Shown here: positions 4,658-27,234 of the stretch, one piece after another
Layout: each line of letters opens with the position of its first letter
Position numbering within the stretch: the first letter of the stretch is position 1
Virus record (IMG/VR): IMGVR_UViG_3300022752_006365
Location: 1 to 27,308 of that record
Source: a virus
Reading direction: 5' to 3' (one strand)
DNA: 27,308 bases
The notes under the pieces: model-generated
Database searches by the model: none
What the model was told of the DNA's origin: nothing
Seen by the model: only the letters and a program-made list of their open reading frames with translations
Made by a program: the position numbers and the translations under genes

Positions 4658-5220
4658 TGCCGTACGATCCAGAAAGCCCATTTTGCCAGTGGACACGAAA
4701 TGTCATCGATGAATTTAAGGGATTGACAAACGAAGAAATCAACCAACGTTTGGATCAACGCTCAAACGAATTTGCAATCCTGATGACGCACATCAATGGT
4801 GACTTTAACATTGGAACAGTGCTACGATCTGCAAATTTCCACGGCGCGAGGGATTTCTATTATTTAGGAAGAAAGAAATTCGATCGAAGAGGTTGTGTTG
4901 GCGTTCATAACTACACAAAGATGCAATTTATCGATGATATCGATGGCGTCTTTGAAATCAAAAAGAATTACACATTAGTCGCCCTTGAGAACAACATTTC
5001 CGAAACCGTGTCTTTATACGATTTTAACTGGAATCTTGAAAAGCCGCCCTGCATTGTAGTCGGCGAAGAATGTAATGGAATTCCGCAAGAAGTGTTGAGT
5101 CTATGCGACAAGTTTGTTGAGATTCCAAACTACGGTTCTGTTCGAAGTATGAATGTCGGAGCAGCTGCTTCGATTGCAATGCACGATTATGTGAGCTCTA
5201 AGCGCAGGAGAAAGTCATGA
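4657..5220 (+). CDS. SpoU/TrmH-family (SPOUT) RNA ribose methyltransferase
   Basis: SPOUT enzymes transfer a methyl group from S-adenosylmethionine to a 2'-O-ribose of tRNA or rRNA, using a deep trefoil knot. The three family motifs are clear: motif 1 NIGTVLRSA (51-59) with the conserved Arg, motif 2 VVGEECNGIP (134-143), and motif 3 from EIPNYG through SMNVGAAASIA (155-174) forming the knot. At 187 aa it is a single-domain protein lacking the extra N-terminal RNA-binding domain of RlmB-type enzymes, similar in size to TrmL/TrmH. It is translationally coupled to the following lipoprotein gene by an ATGA overlap. The RNA target cannot be deduced; modification of host tRNA or rRNA during infection is an inference. 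Confidence 0.9.
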   Translation: MPYDPESPFCQWTRNVIDEFKGLTNEEINQRLDQRSNEFAILMTHINGDFNIGTVLRSANFHGARDFYYLGRKKFDRRGCVGVHNYTKMQFIDDIDGVFEIKKNYTLVALENNISETVSLYDFNWNLEKPPCIVVGEECNGIPQEVLSLCDKFVEIPNYGSVRSMNVGAAASIAMHDYVSSKRRRKS

Positions 5221-5891
5221 AGAAAAGCTTGATTGGTCTCATTAGTCTTCTCGTCGGGTGTGGACCTAACAGGGACTTTGAAGGAAAAAACATCTTTGGT
5301 TCTCAAACGTCTGTTGGCGTGACAGTTACTTCATCGGTCTCATCAACTTCATCAGGTGACGGACAACCCTCATGGCCCCAAGAAAATGTTGGTTACAACG
5401 TTGGTCAAACCATTTCAGAGTCCTTAACATGGCCAGGATATCTAGAGGGAGATCCGAATACATCACAATTGAATACGTTAAGTCCTCATCAATGGTACGA
5501 TCCCGATGGGAGCAAGAGTATTAATGCTGTTTTAGTCATCACTTCAAAATACGAATGCTCTGCTTGCGCTTCTGAGGCGAAACAACTACAAAATTTGGCA
5601 GAAGACTGGTCTTCACAAGGGTTGGGAATTAAAATTGTAGTTTTAATGACGACAAACAGTGAAGCAAATGGACCACCAACGGCTTCTTCTACATTTCAGT
5701 GGAAATCGCAATACGGATTAATCGATATGGCAGTAGGAGTAGATCCGAATTTTACCTTCTCAATTTCATCAGCTTTTGCCACGCCTCTTCATACGATTAT
5801 CAACCCTCGCGATATGAAAGTGGTAGACGTTCAAGAAGGAAATATCGAAGATTATAGCGCACTGGAGTCAACTGCAAATGAAAACAAATAA
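5217..5891 (+). CDS. Lipoprotein with thioredoxin-like domain (CSAC motif), 224 aa
   Basis: A signal peptide (MKKSLIGLISLLVGC) ends in a clean lipobox L-V-G-C with Cys at 15. A Thr/Ser/Val-rich linker (TVTSSVSSTSS) leads to a domain starting near residue 100 with the strand AVLVITS and then CSAC (114-117), the position of the CxxC of TlpA/AhpC-like thioredoxin folds; a strand IKIVVLM and the cis-Pro-like ATPLHTIINP follow in the expected order. It would be anchored in the inner or outer membrane facing the periplasm and could exchange disulfides. Start and stop overlap both neighbours (ATGA with the SpoU gene; 14 bases with the MazG-like gene), so the three form one operon. Redox partner unknown. 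Confidence 0.83.
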   Translation: MKKSLIGLISLLVGCGPNRDFEGKNIFGSQTSVGVTVTSSVSSTSSGDGQPSWPQENVGYNVGQTISESLTWPGYLEGDPNTSQLNTLSPHQWYDPDGSKSINAVLVITSKYECSACASEAKQLQNLAEDWSSQGLGIKIVVLMTTNSEANGPPTASSTFQWKSQYGLIDMAVGVDPNFTFSISSAFATPLHTIINPRDMKVVDVQEGNIEDYSALESTANENK

Positions 5892-16739: not shown

Positions 16740-18356
16740 TTATACCTTGGAATCATTTAAAACGACGGCGTCCAAAGTCATAAACAACTTTGCTACAGAA
16801 GTTGAATTTTTTAGGGCCGTTTTTGTCACTTTGGCTGGATCAATTATACCTGCTGCAATTAAATCGATAAACCTTCCAGTTGATGCATCATATCCTAATT
16901 TTTGACCCTTATTTCTTAGCATTTCATCTTCAACAACGTCAGATGATTTATCTGAATTTTCTACGATTCTTCTCAACGGAGCCTTGCAAGCTTTTAAAAC
17001 GACCTCAATTCCTGCAAGAACATCTCTATCATGATCTGCACTAAGAAGAACAGCTTTTGATTCTTCTGCAGCATAGAACAATGCTGAACCTCCTCCGGGA
17101 ACGATTCCATCTTCTGCTGCCGCTCGAGTTGCATGAAGGGCATCTTCTATTCTGTACTTTCGTTCGATCATTTCAATTTCAGTTGCACCTCCAACCTTAA
17201 TGATTGCAACGCCTGAAGATAATCTTGCAATTCTCATTTTTAATGCAGACAATTCTTCATGACCCAGCGTAATGTCAGTAGCTCGTGTTCTCAAATCTTC
17301 TACATGTGAACTTACTTTTTCTTGAGAAGATTCTGTTCCAACAATGGTCGTAGATTTTGCATCTACTACAATCTTCTTTGTTTTACCAAGCTCATTCAAC
17401 GTAGCTTTGTCTAAAGTGATTCCATTAATGCTTGAAATTAATGTAGCACCGGTTAGAACGCAAATGTCATTCAAATAGTCGGTTCTTGATGGACCAAATC
17501 CAGGTGCTTTGATTGCAACAACCTGTAATTGAGTTTTAACTCTATTTAGAACCAACCCCTGTAAAGCTTCTCCTTCAACATCATCTGCGACGATCAACAG
17601 AGGTTTTCTTACTTCAACAATTCTTTCAAGAATTTGAAGAATTTCCTTTATCGTAGAAATCTTCTTGTCTGTAACTAAAACGTATGCATCATTATACATT
17701 GAATGCATTTTTTCGTTATTTGTAACGAAGTAAGGAGAAAGATATCCTCTGTCAAATTGCATGCCGTCGACAACATCAAAGCTAGTTGCAGTTCCTTTTG
17801 CGTCTTCAACTGTTATGATTCCATCTTTTCCAACCTTATCCATCGCTGCAGCAATGATTTCACCAATTTTTTCATCACCGTTTGCGCTAATCGTTCCGAT
17901 TTGTTTTATTTTTTCTGATGATTCAACCGGAGTAGACATCATCGACAGAAAGTTTGTAATAGTCTTGGAAGCTAGATCAAATCCTTCACAGAGCTTTTTT
18001 GAATTGTATCCAGCATCAAGTAATTTGACGCCGTCTTTTACCAAAGCATGAGTTAAAACAGTCGATGTTGTCGTTCCATCTCCAGCGACATCGTTGGTTT
18101 GAGAAGCAGCTTCTCTTAACAGCTGGGCTCCCATCATTTCCAAAGGATCTGGAAGCTTGATCGATTTGCTTACAGTTACTCCGTCCTTGGTTATAATTGG
18201 AGAATTATTACCGTTTTGAATTAAAACTGTTTTTCCATTCGGACCCAAAGTGCAGCTTACGGCTTCAGCAGCTAATCTTAGACCGTTGTAAAGCTTCTTT
18301 CTTGCGTCTTTTGAAAAGACAATCCCAACATTACTTTGCTCTTGTTCAGATGACAT
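16740..18356 (-). CDS. groL: GroEL-type chaperonin (Hsp60), 538 aa
   Basis: The group I chaperonin is complete from the equatorial start (KDARKKLYNGL, TLGPNGKTVL) to the end. ATPase landmarks are intact: ITKDG with the Asp at 58 (E. coli Asp52), DVAGDGTTT with Asp at 93 (E. coli Asp87), and IEDALHATRAA carrying the Asp398 equivalent. The apical region keeps GMQFDRGYLSPYF and PLLIVADDVEGEAL. It ends at VVLNDSKV, without the Gly-Gly-Met tail that fills the cavity of most bacterial GroEL. No GroES gene is seen in this window, so it may borrow the host's or another phage co-chaperonin. It leads a leftward operon; a 16-base palindrome covers its start codon. Confidence 0.96.
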   Translation of the reverse strand: MSSEQEQSNVGIVFSKDARKKLYNGLRLAAEAVSCTLGPNGKTVLIQNGNNSPIITKDGVTVSKSIKLPDPLEMMGAQLLREAASQTNDVAGDGTTTSTVLTHALVKDGVKLLDAGYNSKKLCEGFDLASKTITNFLSMMSTPVESSEKIKQIGTISANGDEKIGEIIAAAMDKVGKDGIITVEDAKGTATSFDVVDGMQFDRGYLSPYFVTNNEKMHSMYNDAYVLVTDKKISTIKEILQILERIVEVRKPLLIVADDVEGEALQGLVLNRVKTQLQVVAIKAPGFGPSRTDYLNDICVLTGATLISSINGITLDKATLNELGKTKKIVVDAKSTTIVGTESSQEKVSSHVEDLRTRATDITLGHEELSALKMRIARLSSGVAIIKVGGATEIEMIERKYRIEDALHATRAAAEDGIVPGGGSALFYAAEESKAVLLSADHDRDVLAGIEVVLKACKAPLRRIVENSDKSSDVVEDEMLRNKGQKLGYDASTGRFIDLIAAGIIDPAKVTKTALKNSTSVAKLFMTLDAVVLNDSKV

Positions 18357-20316: not shown

Positions 20317-20586
20317 TCAGTTTCCGCCTTGCCCACCAGCACCGCCAACAGATGAAGTAGATCCGCCTTGCCCACCGGTACCCTTTGATCCGCCGGCTGA
20401 GTCAGAAGAGCCACCGTCTCCTCCTGCGCCGCCAAGACCACCCTCACCACCTGAGCCTCCTTGACCCCCAGTAGCTGATGAAGTGACAGTCACGGTCGCG
20501 GACGTTGACCCTGTCTCTGACTTCTTGTCCTCGCAACCGAAGACAAAAGCCGCAACACAAAAAATTGACAATACTTTCTTTGACAT
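20317..20586 (-). CDS. Gly/Ser-rich lipoprotein of myxobacterial style, 89 aa
   Basis: The ATG at 20586 (seven codons inside the longest frame) has AAAGG at good spacing and begins directly with the signal peptide MSKKVLSIFCVAAFVFGC, lipobox V-F-G-C. The whole mature chain is low complexity: a charged start (EDKKSETGS), TVTVTSS, then GG-rich repeats such as GGQGGSGGEGGLGGAGG to the end. There is no folded domain after the linker. Such Gly-rich linkers after a lipobox are common in Myxococcota lipoproteins, where they tether a domain; here the tether ends in nothing. DNA is GC-rich because of the Gly codons. It may coat the host surface or be a truncated host-derived gene. Confidence 0.75.
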   Translation of the reverse strand: MSKKVLSIFCVAAFVFGCEDKKSETGSTSATVTVTSSATGGQGGSGGEGGLGGAGGDGGSSDSAGGSKGTGGQGGSTSSVGGAGGQGGN

Positions 20587-20672
20587 TTTATAACCTTTCG
20601 ATACCATCTAATGAAAGATGTTATCAACGATTATATCACGACATCAAGAATGTTTATACTAAGAAAGTTAAA

Positions 20673-21931: not shown

Positions 21932-23095
21932 ATGAGCATTTTTCGTGAACATAAAACAGTCGCTGACCGAACTGCGTCAGACCGCAGAAGGCATAAGCAA
22001 AAGATCGAAAAAGCTATTCGAGACGGTATTCACCACATCGTTGCAGATGAAAGCATCATCTCAAAAGATGGAAAACAAAAATATAGAATTCCAGTTAGGG
22101 GAATAAAAGAATATCGATTTGTTTATGGCGATAACGGAAAGCAGGTCGGCTCTGCACCTGGAAAAGATATTAAACGTGGACAAAAGATAGGAGACCAACA
22201 GCAACAGCAAGGTGGTCAACCTAATAAGGCCGGCGGCGACAAGGGTGAAGAATACTATGACGTAGAAATCACCCATGAAGAATTAGCCCAGTATCTCTTT
22301 GCTGAACTGCAACTTCCAGAACTTCAAAAGAAACGCCTAAGCAACATTGATACAGAAAAGATGAAGCGTAAGGGATACCGTCCGCAGGGAATTATGCCCC
22401 GTCTGGATAGAAAAAAATCCGCTATCGCTCGTATCAAGCGAATGAAAGCCGCAGGGTTTGATCCAGAAAAAGCAGAAGAAGGCGAGACATTCTCTTTTCA
22501 TGAAGATGATCTAAAGTATCGCCATTACAAAGTCACAAAGAAGCCTTGCACGAATGCTGTCATCTTCTTCGTCATGGACGTCAGCGGATCCATGAGCCAA
22601 GAAAAGAAGTTCCTTGCAAGGTCTTTCTTCTTCCTTCTTTATCAGTTCCTACGTCTCAAGTATGAAACAATAGAGATTGTGTTCATCTCCCACGACACAG
22701 AGGCTCAAGAAGTTGAAGAAAAAGACTTTTTCGAAAAGGCTTCCACTGGTGGAACGAAGGCATCTTCTGCTCTAGTCATGGTCAATGACATCATACAAAA
22801 GCGTTTCCATCCTTCATCTTGGAACATCTATATGTTCCAGTGCTCTGACGGTGACAACTTCCCAGAAGACAATGAAAAATTTCTAGAAGAAACAGCAAAG
22901 TTAACCTCTGTTGCCCAGCTGTATGGTTACTGTGAAATCGAACCAGAAATTAGTTGGATATCAGATCCTGGAAAGCTGTACCAGCTTCTTAGACCGCACC
23001 AGGGACCTAGACTAAAAGAAGTCAGGATCAACAAGCGTGAAGATGTTTGGCCGGCATTTTTGAGCCTCATGGGCGGAACACAAACGGAGGAGTGA
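21932..23095 (+). CDS. yeaH: YeaH/YhbH-family protein (DUF444, von Willebrand A-like), 387 aa
   Basis: YeaH is the partner of the PrkA kinase in many bacteria and contributes to survival of long nitrogen starvation in E. coli; its biochemical role is unclear. The typical opening (IFREHKTVADRTASDRRRHK), the Gln/Gly-rich hinge around 88-100 and the VWA-like C-terminal half are present. The metal-ion adhesion site is intact: DVSGSMS (D216, S218, S220), TGGT (272-275) and CSDGD (D306). At 387 aa it is shorter than E. coli YeaH (about 427). It is first of the three-gene cassette; its stop lies within the GGAGG-preceded junction of SpoVR. DNA is richer in GC than the adjacent 14-21 kb region. Confidence 0.93.
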   Translation: MSIFREHKTVADRTASDRRRHKQKIEKAIRDGIHHIVADESIISKDGKQKYRIPVRGIKEYRFVYGDNGKQVGSAPGKDIKRGQKIGDQQQQQGGQPNKAGGDKGEEYYDVEITHEELAQYLFAELQLPELQKKRLSNIDTEKMKRKGYRPQGIMPRLDRKKSAIARIKRMKAAGFDPEKAEEGETFSFHEDDLKYRHYKVTKKPCTNAVIFFVMDVSGSMSQEKKFLARSFFFLLYQFLRLKYETIEIVFISHDTEAQEVEEKDFFEKASTGGTKASSALVMVNDIIQKRFHPSSWNIYMFQCSDGDNFPEDNEKFLEETAKLTSVAQLYGYCEIEPEISWISDPGKLYQLLRPHQGPRLKEVRINKREDVWPAFLSLMGGTQTEE

Positions 23096-23096
23096 C

Positions 23097-24404
23097 ATGG
23101 ATTATAAACTAGAAGATCTAAAAGAATGGGATGAAAAGATCGTCGCTCTTGCCAAGAAGCACAACCTTGACTGGTATGAACTAGACTATGAAGTCATTGA
23201 CTATCATGAAATGATCGGCGCCATGGTGCACCACGGTATGCCCTCCATGTATTCTCATTGGTCTTTTGGTAAGTCTTTCGAACAGACCATGAGACGATAC
23301 AACGTCGGTATGGAAGGTCTTCCCTACGAGCTTATTATCAACTCTGATCCTTCTCTTGCTTACCTGATGAGAGAAAACCCGCTCTACCTCCAGATACTCA
23401 TCATGGCCCACTGTGTTGGTCACAGCGATTTCTTCAAGAATAACAGGATGTTCAAGAACACCAGACCAGAATCAGTCATCCAACGTCTGAGGTCTGCAAA
23501 GAAGAGAATTCAAGGGTACGTAGAAAATCAGCACATCGGAATTGAAGTTGTTGAAAGAACCATCGACGCGTGTCAGGCTCTTCAATTTCAAACGACCAAG
23601 TACGGACAGGTAAGGCGTCCCCATGCTGAAATTAAAGCTGAATATGTCGAATTGATCAACAATGACAAGGACGGCAGATATAAAAACTTCAACATAGACA
23701 TGGTTCCGATCGAACCAGACTATGATCTACTAGGTTTCATAGAAGAAAATGCAAAGATCCCAGAATGGAAACGAGACATCATACATGTCTGTCGTGAAGA
23801 AGGTCAATACTTCTGGCCCCAGATCCAAACCAAGATAATGAATGAAGGCTGGGCATCTTACTGGCACTATACGCTGTGCCACGAATTAGAACTTCCAGAT
23901 GGACTTCATTTGCCCATCGTTAAGATGCACAACGCAGTTGTTCGTCCACATGTCGGCGGAATTAATCCATACCATCTTGGATTCCACCTATTCCAGAAGA
24001 TCAAAGAACGTCATGGCATTGATGAATGCTTCTTGGCACGTGAGGTCTGCTATGATGCATCATTCCTACGACAGTACTTGACAGAAGAAGACTGCGTTGA
24101 GCTCAACCTTTTCTCATATTCATCAAAGAAAAAAGCGGGAGTTTCGATCGACGATGTCTCCGACGAGATAGGGTGGGAAAAAGTTAAAGATGAACTGATC
24201 AAGAACGTGGCGGGCGGATCAATCCCGGTGGTCTACGTTGATGAAATGAAGAGAGACGGAATGTTAGTAGTACGTCACGAGCACGACGGCAGAGATTTAG
24301 AAATAAAACACGCAAACGAAGTCGTCGAGCATATTAAATATCTTTGGGGTGGACCGGTGAGATTTTATACGCTTCTCGAAGAAGAACCGTGGGAAATCGA
24401 TTAA
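23097..24404 (+). CDS. spoVR: SpoVR-family protein, 435 aa
   Basis: SpoVR (YcgB in E. coli) is needed for normal spore cortex in Bacillus and is often linked with PrkA and YeaH in Gram-negative genomes. Family hallmarks are MPSMYSHWSFGKSFE, GLPYELIINSDPSLAYL, the following NPLYLQILIMAHCVGHSDFF and NEGWASYWHYTL. Length is a little under the bacterial norm (about 470-510), the loss being mainly at the C-terminus. GGAGG overlaps the YeaH stop codon one base before its ATG region, so it is translationally coupled. The many His/Asp/Glu residues in conserved positions suggest a metal site, but the function is unproven. Confidence 0.93.
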   Translation: MDYKLEDLKEWDEKIVALAKKHNLDWYELDYEVIDYHEMIGAMVHHGMPSMYSHWSFGKSFEQTMRRYNVGMEGLPYELIINSDPSLAYLMRENPLYLQILIMAHCVGHSDFFKNNRMFKNTRPESVIQRLRSAKKRIQGYVENQHIGIEVVERTIDACQALQFQTTKYGQVRRPHAEIKAEYVELINNDKDGRYKNFNIDMVPIEPDYDLLGFIEENAKIPEWKRDIIHVCREEGQYFWPQIQTKIMNEGWASYWHYTLCHELELPDGLHLPIVKMHNAVVRPHVGGINPYHLGFHLFQKIKERHGIDECFLAREVCYDASFLRQYLTEEDCVELNLFSYSSKKKAGVSIDDVSDEIGWEKVKDELIKNVAGGSIPVVYVDEMKRDGMLVVRHEHDGRDLEIKHANEVVEHIKYLWGGPVRFYTLLEEEPWEID

Positions 24405-24435
24405 CTTCAAGAAAAAGAAAGAATACATATAGATC

Positions 24436-26370
24436 ATGAGCATCAAAAAGCAACTTCTCCAACAGATCAAGGCACAACGCGAAGAATCAAGCAAGAAGAA
24501 GAAATTCTCTGGCAATCTCATGGACTACATCGAGATGGTGGAGAAAGATCCTTCTATCGTCAAATCAGCGCACAAAAGACTCTACGATGCAATAGAAGAG
24601 CACGGATCTTATGTGATGCCGGATTCTGACCCACGTAAATTTAAGGTCTTCGATGGAGATCAAGTAAAGATCCACAAGTACTTTGAAGGCGAGTTCTTCG
24701 GAATGGAGAACGTCATCGAAAAAGTCATGAGCTTCTTGTCATCCGCAGCTCACAAAGGTGAGGAATCTCGTCAGGTTCTTCTTCTTATGGGCCCAGTCGG
24801 AGCTGGTAAATCTGCACTTACTGAGCACATCAAGAAGGCTCTAGAGCAGAAGAAGTACTTTGCATTGAAGGGTGATCCACACCGTGGTGAACCGTTACAA
24901 TTAATCCCACGTTCTCTTCGAAAATCCGTAGAAGAATCCTTAGGAGTAAAGATTGACGGTGATATTTCTCCCGTTGCTCGTCATAAGCTTCTCAATGACT
25001 ATGCTGGAAAGTATGAAGACTTCGAGGTTGAAGAAGTTACATTTTCACAACGAGCTCGTCGTGGTGTAGCTTCCGTTCCTCCAATGGATGCCAACTCCCA
25101 AGACGTCTCAGTCCTCATCGGATCTGTTGATATTTCTAAATTAGATAAATTTGCTGAGGATGATCCAAGAGCTCTATCGCTCAACGGTGCATTCAACGTC
25201 GGTAACCGTGGTATCGTGGAACTCGTCGAGGTCTTCAAGAACGAAATTGAATTCCTCCACACCATCATCACCGCCACCCAGGAAAAGAGAGTTCCATCTC
25301 CTGGTAAATCAGACATGTTACACTTCGACGGTGTCATCCTAGCACACTGCAACGAGGCAGAATGGAATCGATTCCAGTCTGAGCACACCAACGAAGCCAT
25401 CATGGATCGTATCGTCAAGATCTCCGTCCCATACTGTCTTGAATTGAATCAAGAAGTCAAGATCTATGAGAAGATGTTAGGCAAGTCTGAGTTCAAGGCC
25501 CACATCGCCCCACACACCCTCAAGGTAGCATCCATGTTCTCTGTCATGTCACGTCTCAAGGATTCTGCCAAGTGTGACCTTCTCACCAAGATGAAGATCT
25601 ACAATGGTGAGGAAGTCCTCGAGAAAGGACGCGTTCGTAAGGTAGATATCAAGGACCTACGAGAAGAGGCGAAGCATGAAGGTATGGACGGCATCTCAAC
25701 TCGTTTCATCACCAAGGCTCTTGACAATGCTCTCACTGCGTCGGATAAGAACATGATCACGCCCATCTCTGTCCTTGACTCATTGACGAAGATGGTCAAA
25801 GAGCAATTGATCGATGAAGCCCTCAAGTCAAAATGCCTAGAGCTTCTCCAGAAAACGATCAGAGAAGAGTATTTAAAGATACTTGAGAATGAAATCGCCA
25901 AGGCGTTTATCTCAGCGTATGAAGAACAAGCTCAAGCTTTATTTGATTCTTATCTTGATAATGCTGAGGCTTATACAACACGTGCAAAACTCAAGGATAG
26001 AGTTACAAAAGAAGAGCGAAAACCAGACGAAGGATTCATGGCCTCAATTGAAGAACAAATCGGAGTTACCGGCTCGTCACGAGACGGATTCCGTTCAGAC
26101 GTCACCGCCTACATGTTTGCCAAAATGAGGCGCGGCGAGAAGGTCTCTTTCAAGACCTATGAGCCCCTTAAGAATGCAATTGAATCATACTTGATCTCTT
26201 CAGTCAGGTCAATGGCTCGTATAGTGACCAAGTCAAAGACACGTGACGAGGATCAACAGAAGAAATACTCAGATATGGTGGAGACTCTTATGAAAGAGTA
26301 TGGGTATTCAGCAGAATCTGCGGAGGAGATCCTAGTCTTTGCTTCAAATAATTTGTGGAGAGATTCTTAG
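24436..26370 (+). CDS. prkA: PrkA-family serine protein kinase (YeaG-like), 644 aa
   Basis: PrkA is an AAA+ ATPase with a C-terminal kinase-like domain; it acts in stationary-phase, nitrogen-starvation and sporulation control. The N-terminus includes DYIEMVEKDPSIVKSAHKRL and FFGMENVIEKVMSFL; Walker A is GPVGAGKS (119-126), and NRGIVELVEVFK plus the GVILAHCNEAEWNRF segment give the Walker B/sensor region typical of this family. The C-terminal domain follows from about 410. Length (644) equals that of E. coli YeaG, so it looks complete. It lies 31 bases after SpoVR, with a possible own start signal (TACATATAGATC-ATG). Codon choice (many ATC, GTC, CTC) differs from nearby phage genes. Bacterial order is usually prkA-yeaH-spoVR; here prkA is last. 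Confidence 0.95.
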   Translation: MSIKKQLLQQIKAQREESSKKKKFSGNLMDYIEMVEKDPSIVKSAHKRLYDAIEEHGSYVMPDSDPRKFKVFDGDQVKIHKYFEGEFFGMENVIEKVMSFLSSAAHKGEESRQVLLLMGPVGAGKSALTEHIKKALEQKKYFALKGDPHRGEPLQLIPRSLRKSVEESLGVKIDGDISPVARHKLLNDYAGKYEDFEVEEVTFSQRARRGVASVPPMDANSQDVSVLIGSVDISKLDKFAEDDPRALSLNGAFNVGNRGIVELVEVFKNEIEFLHTIITATQEKRVPSPGKSDMLHFDGVILAHCNEAEWNRFQSEHTNEAIMDRIVKISVPYCLELNQEVKIYEKMLGKSEFKAHIAPHTLKVASMFSVMSRLKDSAKCDLLTKMKIYNGEEVLEKGRVRKVDIKDLREEAKHEGMDGISTRFITKALDNALTASDKNMITPISVLDSLTKMVKEQLIDEALKSKCLELLQKTIREEYLKILENEIAKAFISAYEEQAQALFDSYLDNAEAYTTRAKLKDRVTKEERKPDEGFMASIEEQIGVTGSSRDGFRSDVTAYMFAKMRRGEKVSFKTYEPLKNAIESYLISSVRSMARIVTKSKTRDEDQQKKYSDMVETLMKEYGYSAESAEEILVFASNNLWRDS

Positions 26371-26405: not shown

Positions 26406-26439
26406 AATGTGCCGTATAGCTATTATTATGCGGCACATT
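26406..26439 (+). promoter_or_regulatory. Hairpin holding the start of the GIY-YIG gene
   Basis: AATGTGCCG (26406-26414) and CGGCACATT (26431-26439) are perfect 9-base complementary arms around a 16-base loop that contains TATAGC and the ATG at 26428. A transcript reading through from PrkA would fold with the start codon in the loop next to the stem, whereas one starting from TATAGC would lack the left arm. T4-type homing-endonuclease genes are known to be held off by such hairpins in read-through transcripts. Confidence 0.55.
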
Positions 26440-27234
26440 TATACTTTTAGGAATTTAGTAAACGGTAAGATTTACGTTGGGCAAACAAATAAACCAAAAA
26501 AAAGATTATGGGAGCACCTTCATGCTGCAAAAGAAGGTCATAATAGCTTGTTATGTTATGCAATTAGAAAGTACGGAGAAGAAAACTTTCTATTTGAAGT
26601 AATTGAAGAATGTGAAGATGAAGTCACTAATCAAAGAGAAGAATTTTGGATATCACATTTTGATTCTTTTGAAAACGGATACAACATGACAACAGGAGGC
26701 GATCATTTTTCACTTTCAAAAGAAGCAAAGAAAAAAATTGGGGATAGGTTCCGCGGAAAACACCTCTCCGAAGAACACAAACAAAAGCTTCGCGAAGCCA
26801 ACAGGGGGAAAATACCACCCTGCACTGATGAAACGCGGAGGAAACGATCTGAGTCTATGAAGGGAAAGAATACCGGCCCTAAATCAGAAGAACATCGTAG
26901 GAAGTTATCAGAGGCCAGAAGAAAATGGAGTTTGACAGAAGAACAAAAGAAGAAGATAGCTGAGAATAGAAAACCTGTCTCTGAAGAAACGCGTAAAAAG
27001 ATTTCTGAGGCAGGTAAAGGAAGAATAGTTTCGGAAGAAACACGTCGTAAAAAGTCAGAATCTATGAAAGGTAAAAAATTTGGTTCTCCCTCTCAAGAAA
27101 CGATTGAAAAACGCTCTGCAAAAAACAGAGGCAAAAAGAGGTCAGAAGAACAGAGACAACGAATGAGAGATGGATGGAAACGTAAGCGTGAAGAAAAAGA
27201 AAGATTGAAATTACTTGAACAAGGATCTTCTTGA
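26428..27234 (+). CDS. GIY-YIG homing endonuclease with NUMOD3 repeats, 268 aa
   Basis: I prefer the ATG at 26428, giving MRHIYTFRNLVNGKIYVGQT at the N-terminus as usual for this family; an in-frame ATG at 26407 adds seven residues. The nuclease domain (about 1-92) has HIY and YVG for GIY-YIG, an Arg at 26 in KKRLWEHL, YAIRKYGEENF and the catalytic Glu region NQREEFWISHF, ending YNMTTGG. Then come about six NUMOD3-type DNA-binding motifs of the form G-K-x-x-S-E-E-x-R-x-K-x-S-E-x-x-K-G, and a very basic tail. It is free-standing, directly after prkA, and is followed by a terminator. Its recognition site, often in the adjacent gene, would be looked for in prkA. Confidence 0.92.
   Translation: MRHIYTFRNLVNGKIYVGQTNKPKKRLWEHLHAAKEGHNSLLCYAIRKYGEENFLFEVIEECEDEVTNQREEFWISHFDSFENGYNMTTGGDHFSLSKEAKKKIGDRFRGKHLSEEHKQKLREANRGKIPPCTDETRRKRSESMKGKNTGPKSEEHRRKLSEARRKWSLTEEQKKKIAENRKPVSEETRKKISEAGKGRIVSEETRRKKSESMKGKKFGSPSQETIEKRSAKNRGKKRSEEQRQRMRDGWKRKREEKERLKLLEQGSS

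Follow-up and report, generated by a model that had tools for sequence, protein, structure and literature searches.

Why should a virus carry genes of a bacterial starvation operon, where did it get them, and what might it gain from them? These questions are raised by a 27.3-kb linear IMG/VR virus record (27,308 nucleotides, the whole stretch analysed, hereafter the window), in which yeaH, spoVR and prkA stand together. A preliminary description, made from the sequence alone, had seen in them a stress/sporulation module and suggested its capture from a bacterium.

An intact module in a T4-type phage genome

The three open reading frames are adjacent on the same strand, free of internal stops and separated by 1 nt (yeaH/spoVR) and 31 nt (spoVR/prkA), and all three proteins score far above the Pfam cut-offs, which for the PrkA families stand at 25 bits. 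yeaH (21932..23095, +) encodes a 387-aa DUF444 protein (PF04285, 364 bits, E = 1.5e-108) with a VWA fold by AF2 and Foldseek and a full MIDAS, made up of D216-x-S218-x-S220 (22577..22591, +), T275 (22754-22756) and D306 (22847-22849), which does not vary among 56 YeaHs from phages and bacteria. spoVR (23097..24404, +; 435 aa) has a SpoVR domain (PF04293, 387 bits, 1.1e-115) followed by SpoVR_C (35.4 bits, 1.1e-8). prkA (24436..26370, +; 644 aa) combines both family domains, AAA_PrkA (462.9 bits, 9e-139) and the PrkA C-domain (268.3 bits, 1e-79), in one protein that keeps Walker A (GPVGAGKS, residues 119-126; 24790..24813, +), Walker B, sensor-1 Asn306 and Arg325; every AAA+ residue checked is retained. 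The module is complete, as first described, with MIDAS and Walker A intact.

It is flanked in the window by genes for four collagen-repeat tail-fibre-like proteins, GroEL, HNH and GIY-YIG endonucleases, and small proteins. The window, a fragment, has no capsid or portal genes; these are present in a 211-kb sister contig (L007/G001), 97.5% identical to the window across the module, over 10.6 kb, which encodes both hallmarks of a T4-type jumbo myovirus, the capsid protein gp23 (1.4e-64) and the T4 portal protein gp20 (3.9e-74). Their presence there excludes a reading of the window as bacterial chromosome, and upholds its assignment to a phage. gp23 was detected in 12 of 20 module-bearing records and the T4 portal in 13 of 14; one 361-kb contig (L020, G003) has the module with neither gp23 nor T4 portal detected. 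Terminase family PF17289 had no match in the module-bearing contigs, and gp23 and portal were used as markers instead.

Some other features of the window deserve mention. Directly 3' of prkA lies a GIY-YIG/NUMOD3 homing endonuclease gene (26407-27234) that is absent from L007; the stretch 3' of prkA is about 811 bp long in the window against about 67 bp in L007, suggesting a recent mobile insertion. Short proteins encoded at 5217-5891 and 20317-20607 begin like lipoproteins, with a Cys after the signal peptide, and end in tails rich in Ser, Thr and Gly; they are odd for a phage, and may hint at the host group. A PLP-dependent, cysteine-synthase-like enzyme (PF00291; 3126-4004) is a possible auxiliary metabolic gene.

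One gene order in phages, another in bacteria

Our scan of viral sequences was pattern-limited, so that its counts are lower bounds, and the scan of bacterial genomes was limited likewise. At least 172 viral stretches encode a PrkA relative and at least 121 a SpoVR. All three genes are present at 111 of 116 distinct viral loci, every one reading yeaH-spoVR-prkA as the window does; the remaining five lack one gene, mostly at a contig cut. All 75 complete bacterial loci from the genome scan read prkA-yeaH-spoVR. The rearrangement proposed from the window alone is thus confirmed, and the same order, once sought in other phage genomes, proved universal among these three-gene loci.

Three apparent bacterial exceptions (L201-L203) have the permuted order, but fall inside the phage clade. 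L201 (NHDW01000006.1, 305,838 bp, from a Methylococcaceae MAG) carries gp23, the T4 portal and the permuted module, and is jumbo-phage DNA that was binned with a bacterial genome. L202 and L203 were excluded likewise, their reading as phage contigs in MAGs drawing solely on clade and gene order. A yeaG-yeaH pair in Enterobacter phage LAU1 (MN688132.1:1-3308) was also rejected, being almost certainly host sequence that flanks a prophage at one end of a record labelled as a complete phage.

The bacterial operon (R. etli CH02817-CH02815, Clostridia, Thermomicrobium) comprises the same three families, co-linear and with the same AAA+ and MIDAS residues; in E. coli yeaGH lie together and ycgB elsewhere. 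The phage module differs from it in its permuted order, in its chaperonin neighbour, and in the loss of the CHCC site from 63 of 111 phage PrkAs.

Ancestry and number of captures

In a tree of 97 PrkA sequences, its bacterial sampling limited to a few phyla, the T4-like phage proteins group as a single clade next to Clostridia and Desulfobacterota, with SH-aLRT 100 and a stem of 0.41. The SpoVR and YeaH trees present the same picture, each with phage-clade support of 100. One fully supported clade in all three trees argues for a single, old capture, and the bacterial ancestry that had been suggested is borne out. We consider it very probable that the whole trio was acquired once, long ago, from a lineage of Clostridia/Desulfobacterota type, permuted, and inherited as a unit under strong purifying selection; the donor lineage is provisional, given the few bacterial phyla sampled. 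One intact, rearranged trio is thus long established in more than 100 T4-like giant phages.

Purifying selection on the module is strong as judged from codon comparison of the window with L007 (dN/dS: YeaH 0/0.071, SpoVR 0/0.138, PrkA 0.0049/0.199). The preliminary description had taken a higher GC content as a sign of capture, but in 105 phage modules GC equals that of the DNA on either side (0.398 vs 0.405, r = 0.84), and GC3 in the window module is 0.42-0.49 against 0.490 for the capsid gene of the sister contig. The module has ameliorated to the phage, and the capture is ancient and common to 100 or more phages; its GC is no sign of capture, and it is the trees that speak for ancestry.

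Among the phages, the trees of the three genes resemble one another more than they resemble the gp23 capsid tree, which implies that the trio travels together, for the most part by vertical inheritance. Its co-inheritance with the capsid (r = 0.50-0.65 overall) stems mostly from a deep split; when the outgroup and a near-copy are removed, r against the capsid becomes 0.00 for PrkA, 0.49 for SpoVR and -0.10 for YeaH, so that exchange of the module among related phages is possible.

Not all phage trios belong to this clade. Thermus phages YS40, TMA, MN1, phiLo and Lalka8 carry the three genes, in an order that reads yeaH-spoVR-prkA in YS40 (with one extra gene before prkA), MN1, phiLo and Lalka8; their proteins are 20-34% identical and occupy a separate branch of the PrkA tree. 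PrkA, YeaH and SpoVR are also phage-borne in uncultured phages of 595-642 kb (LR756502, LR745206, LR756504, LR756511), and in those of 595-636 kb the linked copies have the bacterial order, unlike the T4-like phages. Both the Thermus and the 0.6-Mb phages group away from the T4-like clade in the PrkA tree. The AU test rejects a common origin for the PrkAs of T4-like and Thermus phages (p = 0.009), though the branches involved are long, and the PrkAs of the 595-642 kb phages lie with Pseudomonadota (three) or Bdellovibrionota/Desulfobacterota (one), which argues for separate captures. The Thermus phages and the 0.6-Mb phages thus appear to have captured the trio separately, which makes at least three captures and probably four. 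Ralstonia jumbo phage RsoM2USA looks like one more case: in this lytic isolate SpoVR (ORF28) and PrkA (ORF30) are one gene apart, the tabulated coordinates imply the bacterial order, and the best matches are to Vibrio and Alcanivorax, the genes being listed separately and the module not recognised (PMC8504454).

A predicted AAA+, VWA and zincin-like machine

The phage PrkAs fall into two sorts. The CHCC set, complete in all Clostridia PrkAs, is complete in 48 of the 111 phage proteins, and in the other 63 all three cysteines are lost, with no intermediates; the usual residues are then D-Q-S-A, as in the window (D147/Q155/S178/A181; 24874..24978, +). Judged by residues, this all-or-none pattern is like that of zinc-dependent and zinc-free paralogues.

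SpoVR is the least familiar of the three. Sequence search found no solved relative, and its AF2 model (pLDDT 88) had no significant Foldseek match in the PDB and one clear match among viral models, A0A3Q8HYQ4 (617 residues). When the model was compared by VIA-align, nearly all the top rows were zincin metallopeptidases, bearing in mind that middling Z scores can arise by chance in helical models: 3o0y came first (Z 12.1, rmsd 3.8, 182 residues), and M3 oligoendopeptidase F (Z 10.7, rmsd 4.2, 184 residues) and the M32, M1 and ACE families were also represented. Two conserved motifs resemble, in sequence, the metal ligands of gluzincins: HxxxH (residues 105-109; 23409..23423, +), whose His105 and His109 are invariant in 62 sequences, and NEGWA (249-253; 23841..23855, +), of which N249, E250 and G251 are invariant and which we take to resemble NEGFA of M1 peptidases. 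The HExxH of an active enzyme is not found, the first motif being HCVGH in phages and HVYGH in Clostridia, with Cys or Val respectively at the position of the catalytic Glu. Its absence suggests a metal-binding protein that is perhaps no peptidase; SpoVR may be zincin-like, going by the model, and we do not class it as an active peptidase. Another phage locus (L013:3255-5816, +) has an 853-aa SpoVR open reading frame with an intein inserted exactly after NEGWA. Inteins tend to occupy active sites, and NEGWA is therefore likely to be a functional centre of SpoVR.

From these features we propose a working model in which the three proteins are assumed to form one complex. PrkA would be an AAA+ motor; YeaH would be its VWA/MIDAS client adaptor, by analogy with NorQ-NorD and the MIDAS domain of Rea1, the YeaH model matching VWA domains that include the AAA+-motor partners Rea1/midasin and NorQD (AF2/Foldseek); SpoVR would be a metal-binding partner of zincin fold. 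Together they would make an ATP-driven protein-remodelling machine.

A chaperonin neighbour

The window carries a full-length GroEL gene near the module but outside the operon (16740..18356, -; PF00118 6.8e-71, PHROG groEL 3.9e-150), its GDGTT motif intact. A full GroEL is found near the module in 11 phages, all of the window's subclade. In 60 of the 111 phages the gene directly 3' of prkA encodes a relative of GroEL, matching the window GroEL with a profile E of 3.8e-37, and in all 60 the GDGT ATPase motif is missing; no phage has both chaperonins, and 40 have neither. The motif is present in other GroEL-bearing phage contigs, save for one that is truncated where the contig ends. No chaperonin was found near prkA in the bacterial loci. 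The GDGT-less proteins apparently constitute an undescribed family of degenerate chaperonins, to go by their sequences; examples are encoded at L048:12194-13570 and L038:12186-13523, and they evolve fast, at about 20% pairwise identity.

What the phage may gain

In bacteria the operon is starvation-induced, under (p)ppGpp, NtrC or sigma-54 control (PMC3188799, PMC4664914), which favours a role in arrested hosts. The trio would be made during infection and would impose the operon's starvation-survival activity on growth-arrested hosts, which would thus remain able to yield phage for the time that a large phage needs; the machine may also remodel phage proteins, with the neighbouring chaperonin. 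By analogy with bacteria a host-starvation role is plausible. The 'sporulation' of the preliminary description is misleading, as the operon is induced by (p)ppGpp and starvation in non-spore-formers such as R. etli (PMC3188799), and Thermus phages carry the trio too. That in this T4-type jumbo myovirus the PrkA-YeaH-SpoVR operon has been domesticated, acts as a remodelling machine and is put to starvation-survival use has as a whole about an even chance of being right; that the trio keeps large-phage production going by imposing starvation survival on arrested hosts we propose more tentatively, at somewhat short of that.

A serious rival, which we regard as a lesser possibility, is that the trio and its chaperonin or chaperonin-like neighbour serve virion assembly or protein folding, by folding, remodelling or processing phage structural proteins. 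The chaperonins, the GDGT-less one next to prkA in 60 phages or the full one near the module in 11 others, and neither near bacterial prkA, would fit such a role, and the trio of Thermus phage Lalka8 is flanked by the genes for a minor head protein and TerL; chaperonin neighbour and head-gene context point to assembly as much as to host physiology. Virion assembly has also been proposed for a different pair in group 2.2 jumbo phages, MoxR-vWA (Iyer et al., PMC7824862), which likewise has an AAA+ motor, a VWA partner and a metallopeptidase-type domain, but whose AAA+ family, as named there, is another and whose peptidase is fused to the vWA protein rather than separate. Against this stand the 40 of 111 phages with no chaperonin nearby, the lack of any virion link of the bacterial operon, and the absence of a structural cluster common to all carriers. 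A scan for late promoters showed no enrichment of TATAAATA before yeaH and equally none before gp23, so that no expression timing could be read from it. We place the host-state role slightly ahead of assembly. A broader proposal spans both, and we regard it, too, as a lesser possibility: that a bacterial dormancy operon was repeatedly and independently made into a phage AAA+/VWA/zincin-like complex, with a dedicated ATPase-dead chaperonin paralogue, serving large-phage replication or virion building in growth-arrested cells.

Counter-defence, in which the module would keep an infected host from arresting its growth through toxin-antitoxin systems or other responses, is improbable: E. coli YeaG does repress transcription of mqsRA and dinJ-yafQ in nitrogen starvation (PMC4664914), but this effect was shown only for the E. 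coli protein, a member of another clade, and no defence genes are tied to the module. Less probable still is the original suggestion that PrkA is a signalling kinase which reprograms the host by phosphorylating its proteins. Early reports of in vitro phosphorylation by B. subtilis and E. coli PrkA, as cited in PMC3188799, would support it, but in PrkA of B. anthracis neither kinase nor protease activity could be detected, and a kinase P-loop is missing (PMC13001217), and the conserved features seen here are those of AAA+ proteins; kinase activity is doubtful, and PrkA is better read as an AAA+ motor. From a single window seen alone one might suppose that the trio does nothing for the phage, whether as cargo taken up by chance or recently or as part of a bacterial contig wrongly listed as viral, host-flank artefacts such as that of LAU1 being known; this is refuted by gp23 and portal on the sister contig, the one fixed order in 111 phages, and purifying selection.

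Phage copies of these genes have been annotated before, in RsoM2USA and in YS40, whose record already names SpoVR and a serine kinase. The open-access literature yielded no account of the trio as a phage module, of its permuted order or repeated capture, of a chaperonin link, or of a zincin-like SpoVR; as far as we have found, the fixed permuted module, its repeated capture and the chaperonin link are new. In a survey of oxygen-minimum zones no viral 'sporulation' gene was more abundant than spoVR (PMC8940887), and our findings question that label in viral surveys. In bacteria the operon is among those most strongly induced by starvation, and its long carriage and apparent repeated capture by phages suggest that the poorly understood PrkA-YeaH-SpoVR machine is of benefit to them. 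Phages that carry it offer compact genetics and laboratory hosts (Thermus thermophilus, for one) for deleting the trio and finding its clients; the trio is also relevant to how large lytic phages fare in hosts that are starved or grow slowly.
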